NCBI GenBank assembly: GCA_011191975.1
Contig: DUFA01000109.1
Location: forward strand, 28,045 to 69,026
Source: Dehalococcoidia bacterium
GTDB lineage: Bacteria; Chloroflexota; Dehalococcoidia; Dehalococcoidales; UBA2162
DNA length: 40,982 nucleotides
Direction: 5' to 3'
The translations under genes were made by a program, and so were the position numbers. This document shows, piece after piece, positions 19,688 through 40,982 of the stretch. Every line of letters starts with the position of its first letter. The first letter of the stretch is position 1. The notes under the pieces are model-generated. The model was not told where the DNA came from, searched no databases, and worked only from the letters and a program-made list of their open reading frames with translations.

Positions 19688-21457
19688 ATGGCAGAGAAGG
19701 ACAAAGTATATAAGTATTTGAATCCTGTTGGAATCCAGGAACCAGTTAAGATGCACCCACTGGCACCGCGACTCGATACGCTGGAAGGCAAGAATATTAC
19801 CATGAGCGTCGGTGCCGGTGGAGAACAGGGAATTCTTATCCCGCTGGTCAAGATGCTTCCGGAACGATTCCCGCAAGTAAACTGGAATATCAGCTACGCC
19901 GCGGCTCATATGACAAAAGAGGGCAGTGTGGCACTCACGGAAGAGGAGATGAAAACCACGGATGCACTCATTCGTGGCGTGGTATGGTGACATGGTGCCA
20001 TATGGGAGCAGTTGCCCCACCTGTCATCAATAGAGAAAGCTGGAATTCCGACTGTTTTTATCATTTTCGAAGACCAGGATGAGTGCTGGAAACAGGCGTG
20101 CTGGCTAAACGGTATGCCTAACCTTAGGCGTGTATGGGGTTCACGCCATATACCCGGGCCTGAGGATGTAGAGTCATGGATCGACAATTTGCTGGACGCC
20201 CTGGTGCGACCTCTGACGGAGGAAGAGAAAAATCCACCGACATTGGATATATCCAATCCGCGTTATATTTTTAAAGGTACACTACTGGAAGCCCAGGAAT
20301 TTTTCAAACAGACCGAGGATATCCCTCAATTGTATAACAATGCTCCTATATGTAAATACACAGACGGACTGCCTATTGTTCCCCCGACCGAAGAACTAGT
20401 CGAAAGAATGCTTAAAGGAACCCGCCATAAACCGGACGAAATAATCACCTACCAGGCTAGTCACCAGGTCGGAGACCGACTAAGCCAGATGGGCAGTTCC
20501 GGTGTCAGGGGTGAACCGGTGTACTTCATGCCAATGAGACGCAAGGCAACGGTCGAGAAAGTCGCCACTATCGGTGTCATGGCTGGATGTGAGCCGGAGC
20601 ACATGCCACTTCTTCTCGCTATAGCTGAGGCAGGCGGCGGCTGCGGTGACGGACGTGGGGGTATGGCGTATATAGTCAGCGGTCCATACGCCAAAGAGAT
20701 CAGAATGAACTTCGATACCAACGTGATGGGTCCAGGTAATCCAGCCAACCGCAGCATAGGAAGAGCTGCCGAACTCATGTGGAGAAACCTGGGGGGTAAT
20801 ATACCGAATGTCACCAATTGCGGTGTCTGGGGTAACAGCCTGCATAACTGCTTCCCGGAGAACGATGATGCCCTCCCGCCGGGGTGGGCTACTATCAGAG
20901 AAGAATATGATTTCGGTAAAGACGAAAGTGTAGTTGTTGCGATAAGGATCGGTGAGACCATGCACCGAACCGAGTTCATGCCCGGCGGCTATCGAGAATT
21001 CCAGAAGAGCGGTCATGGTGGTATCGGAAGACGGCTGGGAGTTAAGGGAATACCTGGTTCCCACAACTGGCTGGAATACTTCGTCAAAAGCCTGTGGGCT
21101 AACTGGGAGGGCGGTAAAACATTTTTCATGCTTCCTGAGATGGCACGCGACCTGCAGTTGTACGGTTTCAAGACCAAGGACGAGGTATACGAATGGCTAT
21201 ACAAGCAGAGTTTCATGACGGTCAGGGAATACCGCACTCACCAGAGACCCGATGTTACGACCAATGCCTGGAAAGGGATCGAACCTACTTCCGGTAAACC
21301 ATGGAAGGAACTGGATGAGGACTACATGGTTCCGGCATGTTCGGATCCCTTTGAAAACTGTATCATCGTCACCGGTGGCGGTGAAGAGCAGGCTCTCTGG
21401 ACAGATGGCAGAGGAGCCAACGCTAACCCGGCGTACAGCATAGACCTCTGGCAATAG
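19688..21457 (+). CDS. UGSC-family selenoprotein with internal TGA (selenocysteine at residue 101)
   Basis: One frame runs from ATG 19688 (AGGAGG upstream) to 21457, interrupted only by TGA at 19988-19990. Read through as Sec, it gives 589 residues. Residues 1 to about 200 match the UGSC (seleno)protein pattern: LNPVG, then LAPRLDTLEGK, a Rossmann-like half, the Sec at the end of a strand (RGVVW-Sec-HGAIW), and the KAGIPTVFIIFED strand after it. The usual resolving Cys three residues after Sec is Ala here. From about 210 a second domain begins with YTDGLPIVPPTEELVERML and later has TVEKVATIGVMAGCEPEHMP and HNCFPENDD. The part after the TGA has no ribosome binding site of its own, and its first in-frame start is a TTG. 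A hairpin starts at the TGA. No enzyme activity is established. Sec readthrough is inferred, but the same arrangement recurs in a second gene. Confidence 0.85.
19988..20026 (+). promoter_or_regulatory. Candidate bacterial SECIS hairpin at the TGA
   Basis: The TGA forms the base of a 39-base hairpin. TGACA (19988-19992) pairs with TGTCA (20022-20026). After one bulged T, GGTG (19994-19997) pairs with CACC (20018-20021). After a 6-base bulge, GGG (20004-20006) pairs with CCC (20015-20017) around the 8-base loop AGCAGTTG. Size, position, bulged T and a G in the apical loop about 20 bases from the TGA resemble the E. coli fdhF SECIS. The fold was drawn by hand, without an energy calculation. Confidence 0.65.
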
Positions 21458-27382: not shown

Positions 27383-27419
27383 AAGACTAGACAAAATGTT
27401 TTTATCAAGGGGGAGAGGA

Positions 27420-29540
27420 ATGAGTTCGGACGTAATAAATGAAAAAAAGGTTATTGCTGCCGGTCGCAGGGAAAAGAATACCGATAACAGCCTAGTACCT
27501 CCCTGCCAGGCTGCTTGTCCGTTGAAAATGGATATCCGTGAATACGTTGACCTTGTTGCTCAAGGCAAAGTGATGGAAGCCCTCCAGGTAATCAGAAACG
27601 GAAATCCGTTCCCATCGATCTGCGCTCATGTGTGTACTCATCCCTGCGAAGATAAATGTCGTCGCGCCCAGGTAGATAGTCCGATAGCAATCCGCTCTTT
27701 AAAGAGATTTGCCGTGGAATTCGGCGGTGACCGTATGGTACAGGCAGAGGCTGAAACAAAGCACCTAGAAAAGGTGGCGATAGTGGGATCTGGACCGGCA
27801 GGGCTTTCCTGTGCGTACTATCTCAGGACTTTAGGGTATTCGGTAACTGTCTTTGAAGCACATACAGAGGTTGGCGGAATGCTTAGAGTGGGAATACCTC
27901 AATACAGACTTCCGAGGGAGGTACTGGAAACGGAAGTATATCGACTTAACCAGATTGGAGTAGAAATCAGGACGAATACGCGAGTAGTATCACTCGATGT
28001 TCTGTTCGAACTTGGTTATAAGGCAATATTTATCACCATAGGTGCACATCAAAGTCTGAAAATGGGAATAGCCGGAGAGGATAGTCCTGGAGTGATAGAC
28101 GGAGCGACGTTTCTACGAGAAGTAAACTTAGGTCTTCACCCGGCACCGGGTGACAGTGTTGCGATAGTAGGTGGAGGTAATGTCGCAATTGACGCGGCAC
28201 GCACCGCGGCAAGACTCGGTGCAAAAAAAGTGACCATCCTCTACCGCAGGAGTAATAAAGAAATGCCTGCAGATCCACAGGAAGTGAAACAAGCACTGGA
28301 AGAAAAAATACGAATCCAATACCTGACGACACCAACCAAGATTACGAGGAATGAAGGAAAGCTTCACCTTACTTGCGTAAAAATGAAACTCGGTGAACCG
28401 GATACCAGTGGACGCCGACAACCTATTCCTGTTGAAGGAAGTGAAAAGGAAAAGGTATACGATTCTGTTATTATTGCCACCGGACAGGCACCGCAGACTC
28501 CGGGTGATTTCGGAGTAAGTATAGGAAGAGGGAGTACCATACAGGTTGACCCGGTTACCCTTACCACTAACCGACAAGGAGTATTTGCCGGCGGAGATGC
28601 GGTAACAGGTCCGGCGACAGTGACCGAAGCGCTGGCTGCAGGCAGGATGGCAGCTCATCGTATTGACGATTTCCTTCAGCACAGGTATCCGACAAATCCA
28701 AGAGATGAACGAGGTAAGGTAGACACTGAACTAAAACCCGAGACAATAAATGCAATAAGAACGATAGGCAGAAATGAGCCCCATGTATTGTCTCCTGAGC
28801 TTCGAACAAAAGATTTCCAACCGATAGAGTTAAGTTACAGCTGGGAGGAAGCGATAAACGAAGCCAGGAGATGCTTGCGATGTGGAATCGGTGCGGAAAT
28901 TCTTTTCCAGGATAAGTGCGCTACCTGTTTAACTTGTTTACGGGTCTGCCCATATCATGTCCCGTACCTGGACGAACGTGGAACCATTAACATTCCCGCC
29001 GACCAATGCCAGGCTTGTGGTATTTGTGTAGCAGAATGTCCGGCAAACGCCATAGTTCTAAGAAATACCAGAGAAATCAGGCTTATCGACGAGGAATTAG
29101 ACCATGTCTTCAGGTCTGCGGCAGAATCAAAACGTGAGTCGATAATGATAGGATTTTGCTGTCAGTACGGACTATTCGGTACTGGTACACTTGCTGGTCT
29201 ATGGAGGGGAACAAAATCAGGGGTCTGGATAGTGCCGGTATTATGTATCGCAAAAGTGGAACCTTCGCATTTGTTAAAGGCTTTTGAAGGCGGGGCGGAA
29301 GGTGTGTTCATTGCCGGATGCGGAGACCAGTGTGCAAGAGATAATACCGCGTCACAGGTTATAAAACGGGTTAATAAAGTCAAAGGTGTTCTTAAATCAA
29401 TAGGTGTCGAACCCGAACGTCTTAAGTTATTCATCCCCGGGACTGCCGATTTCGATCCGGTTACAGAGATTAACCAAGCGTTTGAAGAGATCTCAGGTTC
29501 TTACCTGGCATCCATAATAAAACAGGAGGTGAGAGATTGA
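27420..29540 (+). CDS. FAD-dependent GltD-like oxidoreductase fused to ferredoxin and MvhD/FlpD-like domains
   Basis: About 706 residues from the ATG at 27420, chosen because GGGAGAGGA precedes it; an in-frame ATG at 27396 lacks such a site. Order: a GltD-type N-terminal Fe-S region (CQAACP, then CAHVCTHPCEDKCRR), the FAD site VAIVGSGPAGLSCAYYL, the NAD(P)H site VAIVGGGNVAIDAARTA, the closing GVFAGGDAVTGPATV, and two [4Fe-4S] motifs (CATCLTCLRVCP and CQACGICVAECP). The C-terminal 140 residues are MvhD/FlpD-like (GFCCQYG, then IAGCGDQC). It likely moves electrons between NAD(P)H, ferredoxin and MetVF. An electron-bifurcating role is an inference. It overlaps metV by four bases. Confidence 0.88.
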   Translation: MSSDVINEKKVIAAGRREKNTDNSLVPPCQAACPLKMDIREYVDLVAQGKVMEALQVIRNGNPFPSICAHVCTHPCEDKCRRAQVDSPIAIRSLKRFAVEFGGDRMVQAEAETKHLEKVAIVGSGPAGLSCAYYLRTLGYSVTVFEAHTEVGGMLRVGIPQYRLPREVLETEVYRLNQIGVEIRTNTRVVSLDVLFELGYKAIFITIGAHQSLKMGIAGEDSPGVIDGATFLREVNLGLHPAPGDSVAIVGGGNVAIDAARTAARLGAKKVTILYRRSNKEMPADPQEVKQALEEKIRIQYLTTPTKITRNEGKLHLTCVKMKLGEPDTSGRRQPIPVEGSEKEKVYDSVIIATGQAPQTPGDFGVSIGRGSTIQVDPVTLTTNRQGVFAGGDAVTGPATVTEALAAGRMAAHRIDDFLQHRYPTNPRDERGKVDTELKPETINAIRTIGRNEPHVLSPELRTKDFQPIELSYSWEEAINEARRCLRCGIGAEILFQDKCATCLTCLRVCPYHVPYLDERGTINIPADQCQACGICVAECPANAIVLRNTREIRLIDEELDHVFRSAAESKRESIMIGFCCQYGLFGTGTLAGLWRGTKSGVWIVPVLCIAKVEPSHLLKAFEGGAEGVFIAGCGDQCARDNTASQVIKRVNKVKGVLKSIGVEPERLKLFIPGTADFDPVTEINQAFEEISGSYLASIIKQEVRD

Positions 29541-30220
29541 TAGTTGCAGAACAGAAGCCGCTGGATGAAATAGTCAGGATGATTTCACCATATGAGAACG
29601 TCATGATTATTGGCTGTGGAACATGCATGACAGTGTGCGATGCCGGTGGCGAAAACGAGGTGTCTTTTCTCCATGATGCGTTACGACTGGCACAGACACG
29701 AAGCGGTACTTCCAATCATAATTTTTATGAACTGACCCTGAAAAGACAGTGCGATCCGGAGTTCCTCGAGCTTCTTGAAGAGAGAGTGAATGGTATCGAT
29801 GCCATACTCTCTCTTGGTTGCGGAATAGGAGTTCAAGCAATAGCAGAGAAGCTCGCAGATATGGTGGTGCTGCCGGGTGTGAATACCTCATTTATGGGAA
29901 TGACCAAAGACACCGGTATCTGGGACGAGAGATGTGCTGCCTGCGGTGCCTGCCGCCTGGAAGATACTGCCGGAATTTGTCCAATTACACGATGTACAAA
30001 AGGAATACTGAATGGACCCTGTGCCGGAACAAAAAACGGGAAATGTGAAGCCAACATGGAGATGGATTGTGCCTGGATACAGATATATGAACGTCTGGAA
30101 CGTCTCCATCAGCTTGAAAAAATAAGACGCTATTACCCTCTCCGAAATTTCAGGGCAATACCGAGGCCAAGAAGAATCGTGAGTGTCGCCGGTGACGCAG
30201 GAGGTGATAATAATGGCTAA
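29537..30220 (+). CDS. metV: MetV-like Fe-S/zinc subunit of methylenetetrahydrofolate reductase
   Basis: 227 residues, starting with TTG at 29537 (AGGAGG about 8 bases upstream). An N-terminal IIGCGTCMTVCDAGGENEV is followed by CGIGVQ. The Cys-rich C-terminal part has CAACGACRLEDTAGICP, then TRCTKGILNGPCAGTKNGKC and MDCAWIQIYERL, the pattern of the MTHFR C-terminal (MetV) family. In acetogens MetV binds Fe-S clusters and joins MetF to its electron donor. Here it lies between the flavoprotein and metF, overlapping both by a few bases, so the three probably form one complex. Confidence 0.9.
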   Translation: MIVAEQKPLDEIVRMISPYENVMIIGCGTCMTVCDAGGENEVSFLHDALRLAQTRSGTSNHNFYELTLKRQCDPEFLELLEERVNGIDAILSLGCGIGVQAIAEKLADMVVLPGVNTSFMGMTKDTGIWDERCAACGACRLEDTAGICPITRCTKGILNGPCAGTKNGKCEANMEMDCAWIQIYERLERLHQLEKIRRYYPLRNFRAIPRPRRIVSVAGDAGGDNNG

Positions 30221-31115
30221 ATCATTATTCGAAGAAAAACTAAATTCCGACGAATTCGTTATCACCACTGAAATCGGTCCTCCAAAAGGGGTAGACCTTA
30301 CCGAAATGATCCACCATATAGATTTACTCAAAGACAAAGTCGACGCTATCAATGTAACCGATCACCAGAGTTCAGTGATGCGCTATCCCTCACTCGGTGG
30401 CTGTCTGCTGGTAAAAGAACACGGCGGCGAGCCTATTTTCCAAATGACATGCCGTGACAGGAACCGTCTAGCACTACAGGCAGATTTAATGTTCGCCTAT
30501 TCAAGAAATGTCGTAAACGTTCTGTGTCTTACCGGTGATTCCGTTGATGTTGGCGACCATAAGGAAGCCAAGCCGGTGTTCGACGCGGATTCAGTACAAC
30601 TCCTGGAAATAATAAAAACTCTTGAATCCGGATATGATACTGCTGGAAATGAGCTTAAAGGAGTACCGCAATTCTTCGCAGGAGCATCAGTCCACCCGGA
30701 GGCTGATTTTATTGAACCACAGCTGGTTAAGTTCGATAAGAAAGTATCATCGGGAGCCAGATTTTTCCAGACCCAGGGAATTTTCGACCTGGCGAGTTTC
30801 CGGAGATTTATGCAGTATGCGTCCCAGTTCGAGGTTAAAATACTGGCAGGAATAATTGTGCTGAGTTCTGCAGGAGCAGCAAGGTATATGAATAAGAACG
30901 TTCCCGGTATCTTAGTCACCCAGGAAATCATCGACGAACTGGCATCAGTTGAAAAAGGCAAGGGACTGGAAAAAGGAATGGAAATAGCTGCACGATTCAT
31001 CAGGACGATAAGGGAAGAGAAGTTATGTGATGGCGTACATATAATGGCAGTTGGAAATGAACAGATCGTTCCGGAAATTATAGCAGCATCCAGCACTGTA
31101 AGTATCCCTTCCTGA
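30213..31115 (+). CDS. metF: Methylenetetrahydrofolate reductase
   Basis: 300 residues from ATG 30213, which follows AGGAGGT; the upstream in-frame GTG at 30183 lies inside metV and has no site. The TIM-barrel pattern of the family is visible: FVITTEIGPPKG with the catalytic glutamate, INVTDHQSSVMRYPS, VVNVLCLTGDSVDVGDH for flavin binding, and FFAGASVHPEAD. It reduces methylene-THF to methyl-THF, the last step of the methyl branch of the Wood-Ljungdahl pathway and the source of methyl groups for methionine. With MetV and the flavoprotein, the reductant is probably not simple NADH. Confidence 0.92.
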   Translation: MAKSLFEEKLNSDEFVITTEIGPPKGVDLTEMIHHIDLLKDKVDAINVTDHQSSVMRYPSLGGCLLVKEHGGEPIFQMTCRDRNRLALQADLMFAYSRNVVNVLCLTGDSVDVGDHKEAKPVFDADSVQLLEIIKTLESGYDTAGNELKGVPQFFAGASVHPEADFIEPQLVKFDKKVSSGARFFQTQGIFDLASFRRFMQYASQFEVKILAGIIVLSSAGAARYMNKNVPGILVTQEIIDELASVEKGKGLEKGMEIAARFIRTIREEKLCDGVHIMAVGNEQIVPEIIAASSTVSIPS

Positions 31116-31179: not shown

Positions 31180-32049
31180 ATGACTGAGAAAACAGTAAAA
31201 AGACGAAAAAAATCCGCTCGTACAGGAGTAACGGGGAAAAAACCAGTTACAAGAAAAAAGAAAGAAAAGATACTGATTATCGATGATGAACCAGCCTTTG
31301 TCGAATCCTGCCGCAGAACTATGGAGGCAAAAGCATATAGGGTTTTCACTACCTCAGATAGAGAACACGCGATGGAGATGATGGAGACTGAACCGGATGT
31401 AATCATTCTGGGAACCCTGGCACCTGCCGGTCAAACCTTTGCCATGTACAAGTGGCTGGAACAACACCCCAGGTACAAGGATATTCCTCTCCTGGTAATC
31501 GATGCAAGACAGGGCGAACAGAATATCAGGGGGCTGCGTACTTTTGAGAACATCCAGGTGGACGGTGACGAATACCTGTCCAAACCGATCGAACCGGTGT
31601 CGCTTGTACCCAGAATCCAAAGTCTGCTTGACGCTAAAACAAAGACTATTAAAATACTGGTCGTCGACGATCATACGATGATACGAACAGGAATATCAGC
31701 AGTGATAGCGCTTCAGAAAGACATGGAGGTAATCAGTGAAGCGGTAAACGGGCAGGACGCGGTAGATAAGGTAATGAGGTTCTCACCCCATGTTGCTCTG
31801 GTGGACATCTTTATGCCAGTGATGAGTGGCATCGAAGCTACCAAATTGATAAGTGAGAAGTATCCAGGAACGAAGGTCCTGATTCTTACTCAATACGACG
31901 AAGAGGAGAATATGATTGTTGCCAAACAGTCAGGAGCTTTCGGATTCATACCCAAGAAGGCTGCCAGTTCCGACCTTATCAGAGGTATCAGGTATGTCAG
32001 TCAGGGCAAGTATTTCCCGTCGGAATTTGCTGAACTGGTGGTAAATTAG
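31180..32049 (+). CDS. Double-receiver regulator without output domain
   Basis: 289 residues. A Lys/Arg-rich N-terminus (1-30) precedes two receiver domains. In the first (about 30-150) the acidic pair Asp35/Asp36 and the Lys (LSKPIEP) remain, but the phosphoacceptor is Gly78 (VIILGTLAP), so it cannot be phosphorylated in the normal way. The second (about 157-285) is intact, with Asp209 (VALVDIFMP) and Lys in FIPKKA, and resembles the NarL-type receiver upstream. There is no DNA-binding domain; the protein ends with the receiver. It may act by protein contact or as a phosphate sink. AAAGGAGG precedes the ATG, 64 bases after metF. Confidence 0.88.
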   Translation: MTEKTVKRRKKSARTGVTGKKPVTRKKKEKILIIDDEPAFVESCRRTMEAKAYRVFTTSDREHAMEMMETEPDVIILGTLAPAGQTFAMYKWLEQHPRYKDIPLLVIDARQGEQNIRGLRTFENIQVDGDEYLSKPIEPVSLVPRIQSLLDAKTKTIKILVVDDHTMIRTGISAVIALQKDMEVISEAVNGQDAVDKVMRFSPHVALVDIFMPVMSGIEATKLISEKYPGTKVLILTQYDEEENMIVAKQSGAFGFIPKKAASSDLIRGIRYVSQGKYFPSEFAELVVN

Positions 32050-32289: not shown

Positions 32290-32293
32290 ATTT

Positions 32294-32337
32294 TTCAGGT
32301 TTGAACACTTAAAAACCAGAATATGTTCGAACCTGAA
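32294..32337 (+). repeat. Inverted repeat in the 5' leader of the second selenoprotein gene
   Basis: Arms TTCAGGTTTGAAC (32294-32306) and GTTCGAACCTGAA (32325-32337) pair over 13 positions, one as G-T, with an 18-base loop. It lies between the promoter and the ribosome binding site. It could be an operator or a leader hairpin. There is no T-run, so it is not a standard terminator. Confidence 0.6.
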
Positions 32338-32356
32338 AATATCAGGAGAGCTGTGT

Positions 32357-34036
32357 ATGAACGATTCTAAGATCACCGTGCTGGATCCCAGGGGGCAACC
32401 CACCGGAAAATTCGGCAGGCGTGGAGAGCCGGGATCGGAAATGATGTCCATATTTGATCCGAAGACTCAGCCCGTCATCGACATCAACGATCTTCCGAGA
32501 CAAATGGCCGAACGCCTGGATACTCTGGAAGGCAAGACGATTTATCTTGTTGACACCGGATTTGCCGGTTCAAATGATTTTTTACAGGAAGTCCAGGAGT
32601 GGTTCGCTAAAAATATACCTGTTGTGAAAACAGTACTTCACGTCAAAGCAGGTAATACCTTCGCGGATGATCCTGAAACATGGATGTTGTTGAAAAAGGA
32701 GGCCGATGGTGTTGTGTTCGGAGTCGGTGGCTGAGATGGTTGTTCGGCGAGTCTCGCCGAATTTGCCAGAACGATAGAAGGAGATTACAACCTTCCTACG
32801 GCACCTATCGTAACTTCACGTTTCGCCGATTATGTGCTGAGAGATGGCCGATCGCATGGTATGCCGTTGCGATGGTCATTTCCTCCGTATCCTGTTGCAT
32901 GGGTACCGAGAGAAACACTTCATGAATATGTTCACGGTAATGATCCGATTACAGGCGTTCCGCTGATGCAGGAGATAGTTAATGCTCTAACCAGACCTTT
33001 AAATAACGCTGAAAGGAATCCGGTCATACCCAGGAGAGAGAAAAGACCTCGCTTACTGGAACCGGATACCGAAGCTAACCTTCACAGGTATTTCCTTGAG
33101 AATGGCTGGACAGACGGTCTTCCGATAATCCTTCCTACTGAGGAAAGAGTTGCAGAAATGCTGACCGGCACAGACCATGATTCCCAGGAAGAAGTAGGAA
33201 TGATGACGGTAACGACTCATGAAGAGATGAACTCCTATACCGTGGAAAAGGTTGCGGTTTGTGCGGTAATGGCTGGAGCCAGGTCTGAGCACCTGCCGGT
33301 TATCCTGGCAATTGCGGAAACGAAACATCCCAATATGCCAAGTTCCACCGGCTCATATGGAAGTATTGTAATGGTAAACGGTCCAGTGAGGAATATAATC
33401 GGCATGAACTGCGGTGGAGCAGCTCTGGGTCCCTTTAACTACTCCAATGGCGTGATTGGCAGGGCATGGACGCTGATGACGATCATTTTCGGCGATGCCC
33501 GGGTTGGCGATACATTCATGGCGACAATAGGCAATGGTCTCAGCTTCACCAATCAGTGCTGTGGTGAAAATGAGGAACGAAGTCCTTACGAACCATTCCA
33601 TGTCAGGAGAGGCTTTAAAGCGGAAGAAAGCACGGTGAGTATCTTTCGGGGATGGAACGTTATGACGCTTGGAATGGGCAACGGTGAACAGATACTCCAA
33701 AGGATCAAGAACATGGGTGGAATGGGTACCTATACTTTCGTTCTTGATCCGCTGTGTGCCAATACGTTAAAGAATGACGGATATGAAACCTTGGAACAAC
33801 TCAGTGAATGGATAAGCAAAAAGGCGGATTCACCATGGCTGAAACCCGAAGGAATCAACTTTATCGTAGTAGGGGGAGAAACAAATCCGATCTGGCAAAG
33901 TACTGATTACCGGCATTATGCGATAACCGGGGTAGACAAATGGATTCCTGAAACCGGAATAAAACTCGACGAAAAACCTCTTCGTATGCCGCTCGGCTTG
34001 AAGTGCGCGGACGGCTCTTGTGGAATAGACCTGTAA
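32357..34036 (+). CDS. Second UGSC-family selenoprotein with internal TGA (selenocysteine at residue 126)
   Basis: One frame runs from ATG 32357 (AGGAGA upstream) to 34036 with a single TGA at 32732-32734. Read as Sec, it gives 559 residues. The N-terminal domain has AERLDTLEGKTIYLVD, as in the first selenoprotein, and the strand VVFGVGG leads into Sec-DGC. This is a Sec-x-x-Cys redox pair like the UGSC motif. The second domain starts near residue 235 with WTDGLPIILPTEERVAEML and has TVEKVAVCAVMAGARSEH, then CCGENEE and GRAWTLM, ending in CADGSCGIDL, another possible Cys pair. The region after the TGA carries conserved domain sequence at once, with no start signal. A strong hairpin lies nine bases downstream. 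The SDR gene follows after 23 bases. Enzyme function unknown. Confidence 0.87.
32732..32767 (+). promoter_or_regulatory. Candidate bacterial SECIS hairpin after the TGA
   Basis: TTCGGCGA (32743-32750) pairs perfectly with TCGCCGAA (32754-32761). If the last A-T pair opens, the apical loop is AGTCT, similar to the GGTCT loop of the E. coli fdhF SECIS. Outer GGT (32738-32740) can pair with GCC (32765-32767) across an internal loop. The apical loop lies about 17-20 bases from the TGA, the range known for bacterial SECIS elements. Drawn by hand. Confidence 0.7.
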
Positions 34037-34059: not shown

Positions 34060-34998
34060 ATGGAAGATGTAAAAGGAAAAATTGCATTTATTACTGGTGG
34101 TGCCAGCGGTATAGGACTCGGTACTTCAAAAGTATTCGTTAAAAATGGTATGAAGGTATGTATCATCGATATGAGGCAGGATGCTCTTGATGAAGCGATG
34201 GCATATTTCAAAGAAAAAGGTACTGCTGATTCCGTATATCCGATAAACCTCAATATTACCGATCGTGAAGCCTATGTAGCAGCAGCCGATGAAGCGGAGA
34301 GAATATTCGGAAAGATACATGTACTTTTTAATAACGCTGGCGTTGGTTCAGGCGGTTCCGTAGTAACATCCACCTACAAAGACTGGGACTACAGCATTAA
34401 CGTGAATGTCGGCGGCGTCATTAATGGTATCGTCACAATTCTTCCCCGCATCTTGAAACATGGTGAAGGCGGACATGTCGTCTCTACTTCTTCTACAGTC
34501 GGTCTTTTTGCGATGATAGGGTGCGGTATTTACACAACCACCAAATTTGCAGTAACCGGACTGATGGAAAGCCTGGCTTCAGAACTCGAAGGAACAGGAG
34601 TCGGCGCTTCGGTACTCTATCCAGGCGGGACAACGACGAACCTTGGTTATTCCAGTATGGTTAACCGGCCAGACGAGCTAAAGAATGAAAATGAACCTGA
34701 GATGCCGCCACCGCCATCAGGCGGTGCCAGACCTCCTATGATGGATACCAGTACTTTCATGGATCCGGTAGAAGTTGGCGAAAGAGTGCTGCGTGGTATT
34801 AAACGGAATGATATATTTATCCATACCCATCCGGAATTCAGGGACGGTATCATCTGTCGCCAGGAAGCAGTATTGAGGGCTATTCCGGATGAGCCGCCCA
34901 GTGTAAAACGTGCAGCCGTACTGAGAGGATTCGGTACACTCGTTTATAATCCTATATATGAAAGGCAGACAACTCCGGGTCCGCCAGACTGGGATTAA
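34060..34998 (+). CDS. Short-chain dehydrogenase/reductase (SDR), extended C-terminus
   Basis: 312 residues. TGGASGIG at 12-19, Asp37 after the second strand (CIIDM) suggesting NAD(H), and NNAG at 91-94. The catalytic residues are Ser144 or Ser145 (VSTSST), Tyr158 and Lys162 (YTTTK). After the core there is a Pro-rich insert (MPPPPSGGARPP) and a tail of about 90 residues, DIFIHTHPEFRDGIICRQEA and on, seen in some SDRs of anaerobes. It follows the second selenoprotein gene by 23 bases and is probably in its operon, mirroring the SDR beside the first cluster. Substrate unknown. Confidence 0.9.
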   Translation: MEDVKGKIAFITGGASGIGLGTSKVFVKNGMKVCIIDMRQDALDEAMAYFKEKGTADSVYPINLNITDREAYVAAADEAERIFGKIHVLFNNAGVGSGGSVVTSTYKDWDYSINVNVGGVINGIVTILPRILKHGEGGHVVSTSSTVGLFAMIGCGIYTTTKFAVTGLMESLASELEGTGVGASVLYPGGTTTNLGYSSMVNRPDELKNENEPEMPPPPSGGARPPMMDTSTFMDPVEVGERVLRGIKRNDIFIHTHPEFRDGIICRQEAVLRAIPDEPPSVKRAAVLRGFGTLVYNPIYERQTTPGPPDWD

Positions 34999-40350: not shown

Positions 40351-40982
40351 TTATTCGATTGTAATTCCACAGGTTCCGTCGGCACAGGTTACGGGTACTG
40401 GCATGCGAAGAGATTTTTCATCATGCTTTATCCCGTCTTTGGGAATCCACTCTCCTATCGAGACGGTTTGGAAGTAACTAAAATCGGTTGTAACCCACAT
40501 CGGATTGGTTTCTCCTCCGACAACTACGAAGTTGATTCTCTCCGGACTCGCCATCGGCGACTGTAAATTACCGGCAATGTATTTACTCAGTTCTATTGGA
40601 TCGTTGTAGCCCTCATCATGTTTCAAACTCTTGGCTACCAGGGGATCGAGGAGGAAGGTATATGAACCCCCGAAAGGTCCACCCAGGTTTTTCGCTACCT
40701 CCATCATTCTTTGAGCAGGTCCGATACCCTGAGTAAGTACATTCCAGCCACGGAAAAGGCTGACAGTACTCTCATTGGGCTTGTAACCTTTCCGCACGTG
40801 GAACGGTTCCCAGACGCTATTCTCCTCATTCTCCGCACAGCACATATTGTTGTAATTGATAGTCGTGCCGGTAGTAGCGGTGAAGGTTGCTCCGGGACGC
40901 ATATCGCCGAAGCAAATACTCATCAGCGTCCAGGCACGGCCGATTACCGAGTTGGCATAGTTGACCGGGCTAAGGGCACCAA
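40351..40982 (-). CDS. Third UGSC-linked family member, C-terminal part (5' end outside the window)
   Basis: The frame is open from the right window edge on the minus strand to the stop at 40351, giving at least 210 residues. It aligns throughout with the second domain of the selenoprotein at 32357-34036. Shared segments include NYANSVIGRAWTLM, CCAENEE, EPFHVRKGYKPNESTVSLFRGWNV, split here as EPFHVRKGYKP and ESTVSLFRGWNV, then FVVVGGETNPMW and the ending CADGTCGI. By eye the two are much closer to each other than either is to the first selenoprotein. Whether this copy also has an N-terminal Sec domain cannot be seen. It converges on the PurF-like gene across a bidirectional terminator. Confidence 0.9.
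   Translation of the reverse strand, partial: GALSPVNYANSVIGRAWTLMSICFGDMRPGATFTATTGTTINYNNMCCAENEENSVWEPFHVRKGYKPNESTVSLFRGWNVLTQGIGPAQRMMEVAKNLGGPFGGSYTFLLDPLVAKSLKHDEGYNDPIELSKYIAGNLQSPMASPERINFVVVGGETNPMWVTTDFSYFQTVSIGEWIPKDGIKHDEKSLRMPVPVTCADGTCGITIE

Follow-up and report, generated by a model that had tools for sequence, protein, structure and literature searches.

The description of UGSC proteins as selenoproteins dates from 2008 and includes one fusion to an unknown domain; a Trx-like fold was proposed for UGSC (PMC2398784, available part of the text). The gene studied here is therefore of a kind already known. The UGSC/Unknown_1 fusion of the Global Ocean Sampling selenoproteome (Fig. 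S1A of the same paper, available part) also joins UGSC to a conserved domain of unknown function; its Unknown_1 can be likened to the C-terminal domain of the present gene by description only, and the available part of that description contains neither a genome-scale expansion nor a link to GrdB. No function for UGSC proteins and no report of a UGSC expansion was found in the available parts of the literature examined (PMC2398784, PMC13188914, PMC12013277, PMC1088965 and PMC10838667); the expansion may have been noticed earlier in two Haft papers (PMC12013261 and PMC9879109). GrdB-related proteins have been linked to fluoroacetate defluorination in the part of PMC10838667 that was available.

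The present gene, named gene 2, lies in a window of 40,982 nucleotides (the whole stretch of DNA that was analysed) from a draft genome of 3.33 Mb in 164 contigs, estimated as 92.7% complete with 8.3% contamination. The features of the window discussed below are listed here.

19688..21457, + strand: paralog gene 1, 589 aa, of the W-U-H-G-A type with no Cys at +3
19988..19990, + strand: TGA of gene 1, predicted to be read as selenocysteine
20003..20020, + strand: SECIS-like stem-loop of gene 1 with a CAGTTG apex and an imperfect stem, failing the strict scan described below
32292..32339, + strand: inverted repeat just 5' of gene 2, with 16-nt arms that are 94% complementary and a 16-nt spacer
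32357..34036, + strand: predicted selenoprotein gene 2, encoding a UGSC domain and a C-terminal domain in 559 aa that include one Sec
32486..32932, + strand: UGSC domain (PF24696, 60.2 bits, cut-off 25), a probable remote relative of the GrdB Sec domain
32732..32734, + strand: TGA codon very probably read as selenocysteine, motif U-D-G-C, from the comparative alignment
32743..32761, + strand: bacterial SECIS-type hairpin with an 8-bp stem (9 with a G-U pair) and a GTC loop, 16 nt after the TGA
33059..33946, + strand: C-terminal domain, confidently modelled (pLDDT 95.1)
34060..34998, + strand: short-chain dehydrogenase/reductase (SDR), 23 nt 3' of gene 2
40351..40980, - strand: third paralog, of which the contig end leaves only the C-terminal part

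With the TGA taken as a residue, gene 2 runs from the ATG at 32357 to the TAA at 34034-34036 and encodes 559 aa. The sequence-only reading, made earlier from the letters of this DNA, had placed the TGA inside such a frame; its coordinates were correct and both sides of the codon are in frame. It had also named a Sec-DGC motif with a Cys, and the residues around Sec 126 do read G-G-U-D-G-C. Translation table 11 breaks each of the two genes into two ORFs at the TGA. As had been claimed for two genes about 12 kb apart, the interruption is shared: the TGAs are 12.7 kb apart, and that of gene 1 (19988-19990) falls in the alignment column of the gene 2 TGA. The description of gene 2 as a second, independent paralog was right about the paralogy and wrong about the independence, as the two proteins are 28% identical and are thus paralogs, not separate inventions. 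The truncated third copy at 40351-40980 had gone unnoticed in that reading. The inverted repeat ahead of gene 2 is a possible operator or leader hairpin. Further upstream, window positions 31180-32049 encode two receiver domains, with no output domain found by Pfam, and positions 27396-31115 encode an HdrA/FlpD-like protein (HdrA label assigned by eye) with methylenetetrahydrofolate reductase genes.

Gene 2 resembles the UGSC selenoproteins (PF24696; NF041046) in its domain match, in the predicted Sec of a U-x-x-C motif and in a UGA followed by a bSECIS-type hairpin. It differs from them in having UDGC in place of UGSC, in being fused to a C-terminal domain of about 300 aa, and in sharing one genome with so many TGA-bearing relatives (32 ORFs in all). 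Against the NCBIfam UGSC equivalog NF041046 it scored 38.9 bits, below the cut-off of 125, and is related to that equivalog without belonging to it; the UGSC region of gene 1 scored 18.3 bits, which is below the Pfam cut-off. At the motif position, defined in this family by Sec or Cys, gene 2 has a TGA, and its homologs mostly have TGA and some have Cys, with L, S, N, M, A and Q as exceptions. Paralogs of the gene-1 type have the same architecture and UGA column as gene 2, and differ in lacking the Cys at +3. In the model of the whole gene 2 protein (pLDDT 81.6), Sec 126 is located after a strand (118-122) and just before a helix (127-143). Foldseek found no match at E<=0.001, either for the C-terminal domain model against the PDB or for the whole protein against solved structures. 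The best relative in a sequence search of the PDB had an E-value of 0.035, and Pfam searches of seven pieces at E up to 10 returned, besides UGSC, sub-cut-off matches only.

The genome was searched for the selenocysteine machinery, and matches under the family cut-offs were left unused. One match over the cut-off was found for each of tRNA-Sec (68 bits), SelA (569), SelB (337) and SelD (371), and the SelD gene has an in-frame TGA of its own. Among 14 named control genomes, matches over the cut-off were found for tRNA-Sec in 5, SelB in 2, SelA in 1 and SelD in 2. Homologs were collected by a contig scan, in which 80 loci were kept of 567 confirmed, and 109 homologous ORFs were aligned. The residue at the Sec column of these ORFs was U in 73, C in 21, S in 4, L in 2, N in 2, and M, A and Q in one each, with a gap in 4. 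The C rows were sorted by eye into 11 genuine Cys homologs and 10 misaligned rows, which were left uncounted. The genuine Cys homologs have a single open frame through the site (e.g. L086, 574 aa), Cys is the commonest residue there after Sec, and no Trp occurred among the 109 ORFs. Within the 80 loci the TGA is kept at this column in records of several phyla, including the closest relatives kept, which are from Deltaproteobacteria MAGs (68%). An alignment around the TGA had been proposed as a check, and it bore the earlier reading out, with a TGA in the same column of 32 of the 36 site-covering paralog ORFs of the genome and of 73 of the 109 homologous ORFs. Selection was likewise retained 3' of the TGA: six comparisons of gene 2 gave pN values of 0.18-0.28 with pS saturated (0.18 and a saturated 0.85 against the best relative), and dN/dS was 0.051 between gene 1 and its 85%-identical C45 paralog, dS being saturated in most of the pairwise comparisons.

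The published bSECIS model (PMC13188914, available part) has a loop of 3-9 nt, a stem of 4-16 bp, a G in the first two loop bases, a spacing of 16-37 nt and an MFE <= -7.5. The gene 2 hairpin agrees with all of these constraints, having a GTC loop, a stem of 9 bp, a spacing of 16 nt and an MFE of -12.2 kcal/mol. It consists of TTCGGCGA (32743-32750), the loop GTC (32751-32753) and TCGCCGAA (32754-32761). The perfect 8-bp stem of the sequence-only reading was thus confirmed; the AGTCT loop given with it was not, since that loop belongs to a 7-bp stem and the 8-bp stem leaves the 3-nt GTC. By single-sequence folding, the hairpin was only moderately better than chance: the MFE was -17.9 kcal/mol, which 7 of 200 dinucleotide shuffles matched (z -2.04), and z was -2.24 (p 0.02) against 200 synonymous shuffles. 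Folding of single sequences was dropped as sole carrier of the SECIS claim because it was too weak. Over 28 TGA sites of the genome the mean synonymous-shuffle z was -0.98, and along these genes the lowest mean values were at -6 and 0 codons (-1.18 and -1.07; next -0.80).

The comparative evidence for the gene 2 hairpin is far stronger. Synonymous conservation was calculated for 11 gene-2-type genes, three from this genome and eight from records of Deltaproteobacteria, Firmicutes/Bacillota, Terriglobia, Acidobacteria and Spirochaetes. Codons +4 to +8 ranked 2, 3, 1, 6 and 4 of 469 columns, and the synonymous-site conservation suggested for a check is thus present in all five hairpin codons; the z-scores behind these ranks ignore shared ancestry, and the ranking sets columns of the same genes against each other. 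In a 13-row alignment, 13 of the 15 bases of the hairpin core (CGGCGAGT to TCGCCG) were invariant, one was conserved at >=90% and one, a loop base, was variable. A strict scan was also applied, requiring an ungapped stem and a loop starting with GG or GT, which is tighter than the published model. It was passed by 10 of 28 TGA sites of this genome and 36 of 73 related TGA sites, compared with none of the 9 Cys sites that were picked by script, 1 of 23 sites with other residues and 226 of 16,298 other codon positions.

The 18 sites of this genome that failed the strict scan include gene 1. For this type, the CAGTTG apex was invariant in 18/18 sites, and the Leu codon at +8 was TTG in all 16 complete genes and in 18/18 sequences of the wider DNA alignment; TTG makes up 164 of 1,317 Leu codons. 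The +8 column was the most constrained of 561 (16 genes). Column pair 19-30 of the alignment was GC, AU or GU in 18/18, and the two outermost stem pairs were mostly broken. Covariation provides partial support only for this stem, because sliding the 3' partners by +1 gave a higher score (0.362) than the proposed stem (0.300).

Searches of the genome with gene 2 and gene 1 gave 50 and 49 match rows, respectively. The retrieved stretches contained 43 matching ORF rows, of which 2 were duplicates, leaving 41 ORFs. At the Sec column, 32 of these have a TGA, 2 have Leu, another 2 have Ser and 5 have no residue. Eighteen of the TGA-bearing ORFs are of the gene-1 type, nearly all with the motif W-U-[HS]-G-A, and 14 are of the gene-2 type, including a UGSC ORF without the rest of the protein on C7 and one copy cut by a contig end; 30 of the 32 lie outside the window. 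The paralogs are not strain duplicates, because the closest pair among the 31 compared (28 of the 32 TGA-bearing genes plus 3 without a TGA) was only 80% identical in DNA. The tetranucleotide profiles of 36 stretches of the genome, two of which overlap the window, correlated with that of the window at 0.69-0.93, the lowest being C106. This stretch (L043) contains a broken UGSC copy, the remainder of which enters glyoxalase/VOC-like sequence (label by eye), and the break may be due to decay or to misassembly; its UGSC match has no internal stop, lies in another ORF than the aligned one and is outside the 36 site-covering ORFs. Three tandem paralogs at positions 4900-10470 of L039 (C41) have Leu, Ser and Ser replacing Sec. 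Since Leu, Asn and Ser versions recur in other records (L079, L082 and L117), a branch of the family without Sec may be conserved.

Of two genomes of the same family, G002 yielded 24 rows and G004 yielded 16; a single TGA was present in 23 and 12 of these, respectively. Strong matches of the gene-1 type were confined to these two and the present genome; four other relatives searched gave weak matches only (<=68 bits). PF24696 was present in 10 of the 61 genomes of the relatives search and in at least 42 of the 400 genomes of the phylum search, the present genome being counted in both. As at most 8 candidates were scored per genome in the phylum survey, its copy numbers are floors. Separate halves, which the earlier reading had named as evidence that would speak against it, do exist in four alphaproteobacterial records (L140, L143, L145 and L147), where the C-terminal domain is a gene of its own followed by a small UGSC gene with an internal TGA. 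These records do not refute Sec, because the break falls between the domains and the UGSC gene keeps its TGA. The existence of this split pair hints that the two domains act together. All four records have a selB-cluster gene near the pair; L143 and L147 also have one of the selA cluster. In the L140, L145 and L147 proteins a CxxC segment, Trx-like by eye, precedes the C-terminal domain; Pfam returned nothing for L140 or L145, and for L147 a TraF match below the cut-off.

A profile of UGSC (17 domains of this genome) was compared with a profile of the GrdB Sec domain (17 sequences) by hhalign, giving 92.1% and a score of 48.6 over 49 columns, with Sec aligned on Sec and an E-value that holds for one comparison only. 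The reversed control scored 17.9 and the best of 60 column shuffles 19.3; the score was 40.0 with the Sec column masked and 34.7 with both Cys columns masked. GrdB/PrdB proteins (PF07355) share with UGSC the aligned Sec and an E...G-[IL]-P-T stretch, and many short members have a Cys at +3, as in U-x-x-C. Unlike them, gene 2 has a different partner domain, and hmmscan found no PF07355 match in it at E<=0.001 or, with filters on, at E<=10. The PF07355 model ends just before the Sec, and a UGA was present right past its end in all 18 GrdB-type loci read (20 retrieved). The short proteins of L155-L168 match the GrdB model in their C-terminal part only, with a UGA just beyond its end, and a match of this short type is also present in the own genome (C75). 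The profile comparison indicates that UGSC and the Sec domain of the glycine reductase protein GrdB are probably remote relatives.

The SDR gene downstream of gene 2 has counterparts elsewhere: genes of its cluster come after the C26 paralog and after L077, a homolog from Spirochaetes, and in all an SDR lies directly downstream in 3 of the 11 gene-2-type loci listed. In 9 of 117 stretches, UGSC-type genes had a member of a thioredoxin-reductase-like cluster no more than 2.5 kb away; the C92 member of this cluster scored 309.6 bits, below the thioredoxin reductase cut-off of 343. In a Rhizobiaceae MAG (L098), the genes run UGSC-selD-TrxR-selA, with a selB-cluster gene that is cut.

On these comparisons gene 2 is, with little room for doubt, a working selenoprotein gene in which UGA 32732-32734 is decoded as Sec. 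If the TGA were a true stop, a 125-aa protein and a separate downstream protein starting at GTG 32834 would be made, and table 11 yields exactly those two ORFs. TGA does also work as a stop in this genome, because 2 of the 31 paralog genes analysed end in it. However, homologs conserve the sequence encoded by the 33 codons that separate the TGA from the GTG, genuine Cys homologs have one uninterrupted frame, no Shine-Dalgarno-like sequence was seen by eye before 32834, and the genome has a Sec machinery and hairpin codons under synonymous constraint, all of which makes a true stop highly improbable. A pseudogene or a sequencing error would be easier to imagine in a draft of this fragmentation and contamination, where one paralog (C106) is visibly broken. 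It has even less probability than a stop, given the same TGA in 32 ORFs of the genome, in both same-family genomes and in records from several phyla, the purifying selection found 5' and 3' of the codon, and the DNA divergence even of the closest copies; the earlier judgement that sequencing error or chance decay was unlikely is upheld by these data. Reading of the UGA as another amino acid (of Trp type, code 4 or 25, or by leaky readthrough) is compatible with a frame that is open under any UGA-reading code, and is just as hard to credit as an error: Cys and never Trp is the usual alternative at the site, two paralog genes end in TGA, and both the Sec machinery and the SECIS constraint are present.

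An explanation with more weight accepts the Sec and takes gene 2 for a general thiol oxidoreductase or antioxidant. The U-x-x-C motif, the thioredoxin-reductase-like neighbours, the Trx-like fold proposed for UGSC (PMC2398784, available part) and the Trx-like CxxC segment ahead of the same C-terminal domain in several records are consistent with such a role, which has an appreciable, if minor, chance of being correct. Against it stand the similarity of the UGSC profile to the GrdB Sec domain, the absence of a Cys at +3 in the gene-1 type, and some 30 divergent copies, which might indicate a diversity of substrates. In its likely role, gene 2 would supply the Sec nucleophile for a reductive enzyme resembling GrdB, with thioredoxin reductase as the recycling partner.

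For this GrdB-like role, the following mechanism is proposed. Sec-tRNA bound to SelB and directed by the hairpin 16 nt after the codon would decode UGA 32732-32734 as Sec, and translation would then proceed to the TAA at 34034-34036. The product would be a UGSC-family selenol domain (U-x-x-C) fused to the conserved C-terminal domain. As in GrdB, the selenolate may attack or reduce a substrate that the C-terminal domain helps to hold. Once oxidised or adducted, the Sec may be resolved by the U-x-x-C cysteine and recycled by a system like thioredoxin reductase. Reductive cleavage adjacent to a carbonyl is a guess at the reaction. The approximately 32 genes might constitute a substrate-diversified set of reductive enzymes and not one housekeeping antioxidant. 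A bolder and rather unlikely proposal is that about 30 divergent selenoenzymes of one architecture, in which a GrdB-like selenol domain is linked to a C-terminal domain without an assigned fold, are a battery of paralogs that cleave carbon-heteroatom bonds adjacent to carbonyls reductively and anaerobically. The ketone would come from the neighbouring dehydrogenases, and Sec would be a protein-borne nucleophile.

New here, as far as the literature examined goes, is the size of the expansion of the known UGSC family, which is unusually large with 32 ORFs of one genome sharing the TGA column; new as well are the map of SECIS constraint, the probable UGSC-GrdB link and the split gene pair near selB in four alphaproteobacterial records. 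A 2026 review puts the largest bacterial selenoproteomes that it names at 57 and 63 genes (PMC13188914, available part). Beside these, the 32 TGA sites that a single family has in this incomplete draft genome are a large number. As table 11 splits the two window genes at the TGA, ordinary gene calling would hide this enzyme family.

Sec decoding is close to certain on the comparative sequence evidence; the enzymatic role is a proposal. The tie to GrdB, the gene runs with selA, selB, selD and thioredoxin reductase, and the split form offer a testable route to UGSC function. Glutathione-dependent ether cleavage serves as a comparison for Sec-based reductive cleavage. If the genes do form the battery of cleavage enzymes proposed above, the family would be a Sec-based counterpart of that reaction or of GrdB-linked defluorination, and its expansion would amount to a selenium-driven catabolic radiation.
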